Below, in pieces: positions 34,170 to 35,717 of a stretch of 36,171 nucleotides of DNA. The DNA comes from Patescibacteria group bacterium (GTDB taxonomy: Bacteria; Patescibacteriota; Patescibacteriia; SCPX01). The stretch spans positions 1 to 36,171 of the forward strand of contig SCPX01000050.1 of assembly GCA_004298615.1 (NCBI GenBank). Direction: 5' to 3'. Below the pieces are notes generated by a model. It saw only the letters and a list, made by a program, of their open reading frames with translations, ran no database searches and was not told the DNA's origin. Position numbers and translations under genes: made by a program. Positions within the stretch are counted from its first letter, which is position 1. Every line of letters begins with the position of its first letter.

Positions 34170-35243
34170 TCAAAGCTCCCAATTGGCGTCGGCTTCCACT
34201 TTCTCCCAAGATAATTTTTTTAACGATAGTTTTTCGTTTTTCGTTTTTCGTTTTTCGTTTAATTCAAAGTATGCGGCTGCGCCGATCATGGCTGCGTTGT
34301 CCATACAGTATTTTTTTTCCGGTACGAGAAATTGGGAAGCGGGAGTGATTTCTGAAATTTTTTTCTCAAGCGTTTGCCTTAATAAAATATTGGCCGCCAC
34401 TCCGCCGACGAGACAAACAGTCCGCACTTTATATTCTTTAACGGCCCGGACGGTTTTGGAAACCAGCACATCAACCACGGCTTGTTGGAAAGAAGCGCAC
34501 ATATCTTGGATCTTATATCTTGTATCTTGTATCTTGTATCTTTTTTGAACGGTGTACAATACCGCTGTTTTGAGGCCGGAGAAACTGAAATTAAAATCTT
34601 TTGAACTAATCATCGGCCGAGGAAAATTAAAAGCTTTCGGATTTCCATTTCGCGCCATTTTTTCAATTTCCGGTCCGCCCGGATAGGGGAGATTTAAAAT
34701 TTTCGCTACTTTGTCAAAAGCTTCGCCGGCCGCGTCGTCCAAAGTCGCGCCGATTTTTTTAAATTGCAAATTATTTTTTATTAAGATCAATTCCGTATGT
34801 CCACCCGAAACTGCGAGAGCCAGGACGGGAAACTTCCATTTCGGCTGAATATTATTAAGAGGAATAAGCGATGAATATATGTGAGCGGCAATGTGGTTGA
34901 CCGGAATAATCGGTTTATTCCAAAGAAGCGCCAATGTCTTGGCCGTTTCCACGCCCACCAAAAGTGCGGTAATCAGTCCGGGGCCGGAAGCGACCGCAAT
35001 TGCGTCAATCCCCTTACCTGTTTTAAAATAAAATTTAGCAGCCTTGGCACTTTGTTTTATTAAAGGCAAAAGCTTTTCCAAATGAGCCCGGGCCGCCACT
35101 TCCGGCACCACGCCTTTGGTTTTGCGGTGAAGTTTGATTTGCGAGGCTACTATATTATATATAACTTTGATTTTATCACCCTTTCCTTTAATTATTGCGA
35201 CAGAAGTTTCATCGCAAGATGTTTCAATGGCTAAAATTTTCAT
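34170..35243 (-). CDS. tsaD: tRNA N6-adenosine threonylcarbamoyltransferase TsaD
   Basis: ILAIETSCDETSVAII, HIAAHIYS, SGGHTELILI, DDAAGEAFDKVAKILNLPYPGGPEIE, FSFSGLKTAVLY, GGVAANILLR. Confidence 0.98.
   Translation of the reverse strand: MKILAIETSCDETSVAIIKGKGDKIKVIYNIVASQIKLHRKTKGVVPEVAARAHLEKLLPLIKQSAKAAKFYFKTGKGIDAIAVASGPGLITALLVGVETAKTLALLWNKPIIPVNHIAAHIYSSLIPLNNIQPKWKFPVLALAVSGGHTELILIKNNLQFKKIGATLDDAAGEAFDKVAKILNLPYPGGPEIEKMARNGNPKAFNFPRPMISSKDFNFSFSGLKTAVLYTVQKRYKIQDTRYKIQDMCASFQQAVVDVLVSKTVRAVKEYKVRTVCLVGGVAANILLRQTLEKKISEITPASQFLVPEKKYCMDNAAMIGAAAYFELNEKRKTKNEKLSLKKLSWEKVEADANWEL
34229..34260. repeat. Heptad repeat (GTTTTTC)x4 plus partial unit within the tsaD 3' end
   Basis: Perfect period 7. 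Confidence 0.9.
34501..34542. repeat. Heptad repeat, six units (ATATCTT GGATCTT ATATCTT GTATCTT GTATCTT GTATCTT) within tsaD
   Basis: Exactly 42 nt = 14 codons (RYKIQDTRYKIQD region). Confidence 0.9.
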
Positions 35244-35301: not shown

Positions 35302-35321
35302 CATTTTTGTCAATCAAATAT

Positions 35322-35394
35322 GGCCCCATCGTCTAGAGGCCTAGGACACCAGGTTTTCATCCTGGTAACCCGGGTTCGAATCCCGGTGGGGTCA
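35322..35394 (+). tRNA. tRNA-Glu, anticodon TTC
   Basis: GGCCCCA...TGGGGTC acceptor, CCAGG-TTTTCAT-CCTGG anticodon arm, CCGGG-TTCGAAT-CCCGG T arm. Confidence 0.97.
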
Positions 35395-35398
35395 TTTT

Positions 35399-35509
35399 GA
35401 GCGACTTAAACTGCTTTAAGTCGCGACTAGGGATTCGAAGGGTTTTGAGATATGCCGAAGGCATCGCAAAACCCAGGCGCCGAAGGCGGAATCCCGGTGG
35501 GGTCATTTT
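35399..35509 (+). repeat. Multi-hairpin element downstream of tRNA-Glu ending in a 21-bp copy of the tRNA 3' end (35489-35509 = 35378-35398)
   Basis: GCGACTTAAA/TTTAAGTCGC; GGGATTC/GAATCCC; GGGTTTTG/CAAAACCC; ATGCC-GAA-GGCAT; CGCC-GAA-GGCG. Confidence 0.85.
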
Positions 35510-35541
35510 TTGAAAGATAAAAAATTTAATTTAAAAAAATT

Positions 35542-35570
35542 AAGGAAATGCTTGCGCATTTCCTTTTTTA
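35542..35570 (-). terminator. Terminator, bidirectional-looking
   Basis: AAGGAAATGC-TTGC-GCATTTCCTT, A and T tracts on both sides. Confidence 0.8.
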
Positions 35571-35717
35571 AGTTTGAGCTTCTGCTCCTGATTCAGAGTT
35601 TAAGTTCGTATCCACTTCTTTTATTTCCGGATGGCATTTATCGCACATCCATCTTTTATCAAATCTTTGGACAGTTATTTCTCTACACAACGGACACCAT
35701 TTGTCTTCTCTTTTCAT
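35568..35717 (-). CDS. 49-aa zinc-ribbon-like protein (MKREDKWCPLCREITVQRFDKRWMCDKCHPEIKEVDTNLNSESGAEAQT), absent from the ORF track
   Basis: Minus-strand ATG preceded by TAGGAGG; CPLC...CDKC; terminator at its 3' end. Confidence 0.65.
   Translation of the reverse strand: MKREDKWCPLCREITVQRFDKRWMCDKCHPEIKEVDTNLNSESGAEAQT

Follow-up and report, generated by a model that had tools for sequence, protein, structure and literature searches.

The window, the whole stretch of 36,171 nucleotides from a member of the Patescibacteria that was analysed here, carries an intact tRNA-Glu(UUC) gene followed by a partial copy of itself. A 21-bp repeat, GAATCCCGGTGGGGTCATTTT, occurs exactly at 35378-35398 and again at 35489-35509 (start-to-start distance 111), as the first-pass annotation had reported. 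No other non-tandem direct repeat within 400 nt is as long anywhere in the window; the one longer repeat (25 nt, spacing 7) is a short-period tandem run at 34229. A strongly folding insert of 90 bp separates the two copies. The locus consists of the following features:

35321..35395, + strand: intact tRNA-Glu(UUC) gene, called by ARAGORN and, at 35322-35394, by Rfam (RF00005, 60.4 bits); the functional copy in the model proposed below
35378..35398, + strand: repeat copy 1, comprising the T-loop and T-arm 3' strand, the acceptor 3' strand and a few nt of trailer (from the sequence)
35399..35429, + strand: linker, including a perfect 10-bp hairpin at 35401-35424 (from the fold and the comparison with the tRNA-Lys(CUU) sister)
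35430..35488, + strand: T-arm 5' strand GGGATTCGAA, then two arms at 35440-35474 and 35478-35488 (from the folds)
35489..35509, + strand: repeat copy 2, a 3' tRNA fragment from the T-loop on (from the sequence; as in the type-2 loci below)

All the hairpins named in the first-pass annotation were located, together with the branched fold. The perfect 10-bp hairpin is formed by GCGACTTAAA and TTTAAGTCGC (35401-35410/35415-35424), and the outer stem by GGGATTC and GAATCCC (35430-35436/35489-35495). Within this stem lie an arm of GGGTTTTG and CAAAACCC (35440-35447/35467-35474), which itself holds ATGCC-GAA-GGCAT at 35452-35464, and a second arm, CGCC-GAA-GGCG, at 35478-35488. The 111 nt at 35399-35509 fold with -46.3 kcal/mol (z = -4.9 against dinucleotide shuffles, none of 200 being equally stable), and in the minimum-energy fold the 5' acceptor strand of tRNA-Glu pairs with the distal repeat copy. 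When the insert is laid on a tRNA, the 10-bp hairpin takes the position of the anticodon arm, GGGATTCGAA that of the T-arm 5' strand and loop (it is also the reverse complement of TTCGAATCCC), and GAATCCCGGTGGGGTCA that of the T-arm and acceptor 3' strand. The folds thereby place a branched hairpin junction in the T-loop of the 3' tRNA fragment.

The insert holds no ORF of at least 60 aa, in agreement with the earlier statement that it codes for nothing, and neither an island nor a gene was found in the 90 bp between the repeats. The curated covariance models of Rfam, rtT included, gave no match to the insert, and at the related loci only tRNA exceeded its gathering score. An exact pattern derived from the insert had no matches among the GTDB representatives. 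PF01541 had no match on the window's contig (C58), so the copy found here does not qualify as an autonomous GIY-YIG element. Further downstream, a hairpin followed by a T-run at 35541-35572 (AAGGAAATGCTTGCGCATTTCCTTTTTT) is possibly a terminator after the tRNA-Glu unit, and a small cysteine-rich ORF, recognised by eye, occupies 35569-35717 on the minus strand (MKREDKWCPLCREITVQRFDKRWMCDKCH...); no Pfam family matched the stretch tested.

Related elements and their junctions

The insert is single-copy in the 1.15-Mb genome, which rules out a multi-copy repeat within it, and a sister element follows tRNA-Lys(CUU). The sister has an arm, the linker and the T-arm junction in common with the Glu insert, the common linker and junction frame being GAGCGAC..GTCGCGA..GGGATTCGAAGGG. 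The alignment of both elements outscores 500 of 500 shuffles, and the motif GTCGCGAN{1,5}GGATTCGAA occurs genome-wide only at the Glu and Lys sites. Exact copies of at least 14 nt of a tRNA's own 3' half lie downstream of two of the 44 tRNAs (Glu, 21 nt; Gln-CUG, 17 nt), against 2 of 1888 cross-locus comparisons in the null. Partial tRNA-like sequence is also present downstream of Lys-CUU, Gln-CUG, Met-CAU and Val-UAC; the Lys, Met and Val copies are interrupted or diverged and were judged by eye, and the exact-match excess comprises only Glu and Gln. The tRNA-Gln(CUG) gene (L056, G000:C1:12407-12587) is followed by a near-complete second Gln-like tRNA with a GCCCCGCCTTTGGCGGGG hairpin in its D-arm region.

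For comparison we used 145 genomes of the same class as the window genome, a set with no relatives of the same genus or family. Two kinds of branched junction recur in them, both placed in the T-loop of such tRNA fragments. The type-2 junction starts with GGATTCGAA(C)GGGC, ends with GCCC.GGAC and carries arms between, giving a three-way junction; GATTCGAAC is the left end of most. Its covariance model found members in 38 of the 145 genomes, with at most 10 copies each, and both sides have changed in compensation in 10 of 19 predicted pairs (11 sequences). A same-strand tRNA lies just upstream at about 18 of the 30 type-2 loci that were read. At all 17 tRNA-proximal loci examined, the 3' end of the tRNA concerned is present a second time, from the T-arm or T-loop onwards (13 copies exact, 4 slightly changed), and this fragment matches the neighbouring tRNA regardless of its identity; the structure model itself contains no tRNA 3' sequence.

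The window insert gave no match to the type-2 covariance model (model R1), and the Lys sister matched it weakly (20 bits, E 0.008). The insert retains GGGATTCGAAGGG, the first arm and CCCAGG of type 2, and judged by layout and not by score it appears to be a reduced form or relative of this junction; what ties it to the family is its T-arm junction, its 3' fragment and the Lys sister.

The type-1 junction reads GGTTC, then two adjacent hairpins (T..GCC...GGC..A and TCCGCC...GGCGGA), then GA.TCC, and sits in the T-loop of the fragment. Its pattern gave 27 matches in 17 of the 145 genomes, mostly directly downstream of an intact tRNA, and none for the reversed control. A scan of the GTDB representatives returned at least 117 stretches, and the record titles among the matches listed name Patescibacteria, Ignavibacteria, Bacteroidetes, Omnitrophota, Margulisbacteria, Lentisphaerae, Nanoarchaeota and Woesearchaeota; nearly all of these records are metagenome bins, single ones may be misassigned, and a handful of matches in GC-rich genomes look like chance. 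Among the first 80 loci listed (88 sites), 50 sites have an intact tRNA no more than 350 nt upstream, and 38 of these 50 are followed by 9 or more exact bases from the 3' end of that tRNA. Of 127 sites, 115 are complementary at the two free base pairs of the first hairpin. Whole units also stand in tandem, for example three of 105 bp after tRNA-Asn and four sites after tRNA-Pro. In two bins assigned to Nanoarchaeota/Woesearchaeota, type-1 units follow tRNA-Val and tRNA-Glu (L143, L196), which may reflect interdomain transfer or mis-binning.

The bare double hairpin is in addition a dispersed repeat, found in 56 of the 145 genomes and often away from tRNAs. The idea, formed by eye, that double hairpins lie at the centres of inverted repeats genome-wide was dropped after a permutation test (p = 0.098). 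Two double hairpins (L084:1501, L206:406) stand in an apparent protein-coding region, by eye possibly ftsZ, and the palindromes may thus also enter genes.

GIY-YIG genes and occupied sites

Several units have a small GIY-YIG ORF inside or beside them. With PF01541, 82 distinct small GIY-YIG ORFs were collected from 13 genomes. A tRNA on the same strand lies no more than 400 nt away from 39 of them (1.6% expected; P about 4e-47), a rate that may not extend to all genomes because the 12 relatives were picked mostly for their hairpin patterns. Tallied by orientation, the neighbouring tRNAs number 60 on the same strand versus 1 on the opposite strand. At 30 of the 39 ORFs, the side facing away from the tRNA holds a matching tRNA fragment that scores above the 95% shuffle level, a few barely so. 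Where the ORF precedes the tRNA the fragment is a 5' one, mostly beginning at nt 1-2, and where it follows the tRNA the clearest fragments are 3'; the ends of the 5' fragments cluster near tRNA nt 12-17, 34-36 and 54-58. At ten UvrC control loci, no tRNA comes closer than 400 nt to the GIY-YIG domain, one ARAGORN call lying about 0.8 kb off. Same-strand tRNA neighbours also occur at 10 of 30 GIY-YIG ORFs in eight genomes of other groups, five times with fragments. The window genome has four small GIY-YIG genes, two of them near tRNAs (Gly, Ser), and no convincing tRNA fragments were found beside them. A GIY-YIG ORF preceded by a hairpin stretch lies between its tRNA-Ser GCU and UGA genes (L260, G000:C4:2519-3036).

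The full order, namely 5' tRNA fragment, GIY-YIG ORF, intact tRNA, type-2 junction and 3' tRNA fragment, was found at six loci (L394, L406, L410, L413, L418 and L398). The unit L418 (genome G139) is built on tRNA-Glu(UUC), has GGGATTCGAAGGG... and then GAATCCCGGTGGGG after the tRNA, as in the window, and carries a GIY-YIG ORF and a 5' Glu fragment before it. At L394, nt 54 is both the end of the 5' fragment and the start of the 3' fragment, as though a single tRNA-Gln had been broken in its T-loop.

Occupied and empty sites can be compared at the conserved tRNA-Thr(GGU)/tRNA-Tyr(GUA) pair. The two genes are 13 nt apart in the window genome and 49 in G012, 102 in G008, where a mini-element with a copy of the Thr 3' end intervenes, and 350 (G101), 462 (G072) and 595 (G054) where GIY-YIG elements do. 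This pair, and not the window's own tRNA-Glu site, is the main evidence for what appears to be gain or loss of the element. A similar comparison at tRNA-Glu in G008, G081 and G111 was rejected, since the isoacceptors differ and G008 has no flanks common to the others.

Among solved structures the GIY-YIG proteins are nearest to UPF0213 and then to SLX1, and no curated NCBIfam family scored above its cut-off. This resemblance raises the possibility that their targets are DNA structures rather than tRNA sequence. Our literature search returned no paper assigning a tRNA-linked role to small GIY-YIG genes of bacteria, and nothing on the hairpin sequences or on tRNAs with palindromes in Patescibacteria.

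Origin of the tRNA-Glu insert

The duplication and its folded insert are genuine and represent a recurrent family of tRNA-associated elements that seems not to have been described before. The arrangement, its recurrence, the association with GIY-YIG genes, the occupied and empty sites and the conservation of the junction structure are all read directly from the assembled sequences. The insert is probably the right-hand end of a homing-type mobile element that splits a tRNA gene and restores it. In its fullest form such an element runs from a 5' tRNA fragment, often with hairpins in its loops, through a GIY-YIG ORF of about 80-130 aa, the intact tRNA, a short linker and the branched junction within the T-arm to a 3' fragment of that tRNA, which begins at the T-loop and extends slightly beyond the tRNA's end. 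The window copy has neither the endonuclease gene nor the left half and is best regarded as a decayed relic or non-autonomous derivative, which would descend from a GIY-YIG-bearing form. The first-pass annotation had considered a tiny mobile element which uses the 3' end of a tRNA and then restores it, and it appears to have had the kind right, given that the same architecture recurs at many tRNAs and genomes with sites both occupied and empty; the insert is not self-sufficient, since its fuller relatives add a GIY-YIG gene and a 5' fragment and the window holds the right half.

We infer the following course of events. The small GIY-YIG endonuclease would cut tRNA genes in a loop, chiefly the T-loop, and repair of the break would insert the element or duplicate the locus, so that a single unbroken tRNA gene remains next to the severed piece or pieces. 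The unit could have arrived from elsewhere by homing or have arisen by local duplication at the break. The branched hairpins sit at the cut position within the fragments and would block recutting. Several observations count against this account: many junction hairpins lie away from any tRNA, the window locus is without a GIY-YIG gene and a 5' fragment, its insert gave no match to the type-2 model, the tRNA-adjacent GIY-YIG genes of the window genome have no convincing fragments beside them, and the likeness of the proteins to UPF0213/SLX1 may point to DNA structures as targets.

A broader version, which we put forward tentatively, would make this a class of mobile DNA spanning phyla, in which a UPF0213-like GIY-YIG gene, a whole replacement tRNA and the three-way junction form one cassette homing into the loops of nearly any tRNA. 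ORF-less derivatives such as the window's might then be mobilised in trans, and the junction may be a new structured nucleic-acid family that marks and protects the cut site.

The insert might instead be a functional structured RNA, which we consider unlikely. The primary tRNA transcript would then end in a domain resembling the 3' part of a tRNA, with a hairpin like an anticodon arm, a T-arm whose loop is branched and an acceptor 3' strand. This domain would vie with the true 3' end for pairing with the 5' acceptor strand, or serve as a decoy in processing or as a regulator. The pairing of the 5' acceptor strand with the distal copy suits this idea, as do the near-complete tRNAs that some copies resemble, the E. 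coli tyrT trailer repeats as a precedent, and the compensatory changes in relatives, frequent in both junction types (10 of 19 pairs in type 2; complementarity at 115 of 127 sites in type 1). The first-pass annotation had named a lack of structure-preserving substitutions as an argument against a functional RNA; the changes seen leave room for a role of the structure as RNA or as DNA, but the decoy that it proposed found no direct support. DNA that is recognised in the form of a folded strand would be expected to conserve its structure just as well. At an orthologous tRNA pair, moreover, some genomes have the element and others do not, tRNAs of any identity can be the target, fragments occur on either side of the tRNA, and the units contain GIY-YIG genes.

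Degenerate tandem duplication of tRNA genes, with REP- or MITE-like palindromes later entering the pseudo-tRNA loops and no dedicated element involved, is also improbable. The wide dispersal of the double hairpin, often off tRNAs, would fit it, and so would L352, where the insert stands between two copies of the tRNA 3' end, each with about 60 bp of flank. Two findings speak against such a history: the fragments repeatedly start at the T-loop with the same junction at the same nucleotide in many phyla, and there is the association with GIY-YIG genes. That the repeats are remnant att sites of an ordinary tyrosine-integrase island at tRNA-Glu is very improbable, for although att sites are classically marked by direct repeats of tRNA 3' ends, only 90 bp lie between the copies, elements of this kind follow tRNAs of about 16 identities with the own 3' end each time, and structured junctions and GIY-YIG genes fill the interval.

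Comparison with known systems

The preferred reading, a tRNA-splitting and tRNA-restoring element, has its nearest parallel in SegB, the subject of a study reportedly by Brok-Volchanskaya in 2008. SegB of T-even phages is described as a free-standing GIY-YIG homing endonuclease that cuts within tRNA genes with the preferred motif RAWTSGAAC, and that is needed for tandem amplification of the tRNA plus its own gene (PMC13096335). By our own reading the reverse complement of this motif, GTTCSAWTY, appears to fit the T-loop. The likeness lies in a small GIY-YIG gene beside tRNA genes of many isotypes and in a motif compatible with the T-loop. By analogy, a loop cut followed by repair could yield the split fragments, the restored tRNA, the tandem arrays and the duplicated tRNA end and flank at L352. 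SegB differs in belonging to phage genomes, and the available part of the source describes no split tRNA fragments or branched junctions (PMC13096335); the bacterial proteins here also differ in being nearest to UPF0213/SLX1 among solved structures.

The fungal mitochondrial mORFs carry a replacement 3' end of the gene they enter, as in atp6 of Allomyces and atp9 of Glomus (PMC3630166). They likewise place an endonuclease ORF in an essential gene, whose function is restored by the copied end while the displaced native end lies downstream (PMC3630166). They concern protein genes of organelles, whereas the present elements belong to bacterial tRNA genes, whose fragments may come from one end or the other, contain hairpin junctions and also occur in ORF-less forms. 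REP and BIME sequences are also short GC-rich stem-loops dispersed in genomes; the hairpins described here differ in lying also inside the loops of tRNA fragments and in forming a double hairpin of fixed layout.

Patescibacteria and several other groups have small GIY-YIG genes in large numbers, and the arrangement proposes a tRNA-linked role for them and names a target. The proposed element would account for pseudo-tRNA fragments beside real tRNAs, which annotation ignores, and would add a bacterial case of a mobile endonuclease gene that breaks an essential gene and supplies its repair. The type-2 junction would be a new structured family, present in 38 of 145 genomes, whose role as RNA or DNA is testable.

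In E. coli, the tyrT trailer repeats with their rtT RNA lie downstream of a tRNA and each contains that tRNA's 3' end. This is the likeness to the present loci, which differ in giving no rtT match; we know of no GIY-YIG gene and no T-loop hairpin insert at tyrT. The tandem arrays at L106 and L108 (both in G067), L165 and L208 are reminiscent of such trailer repeats.
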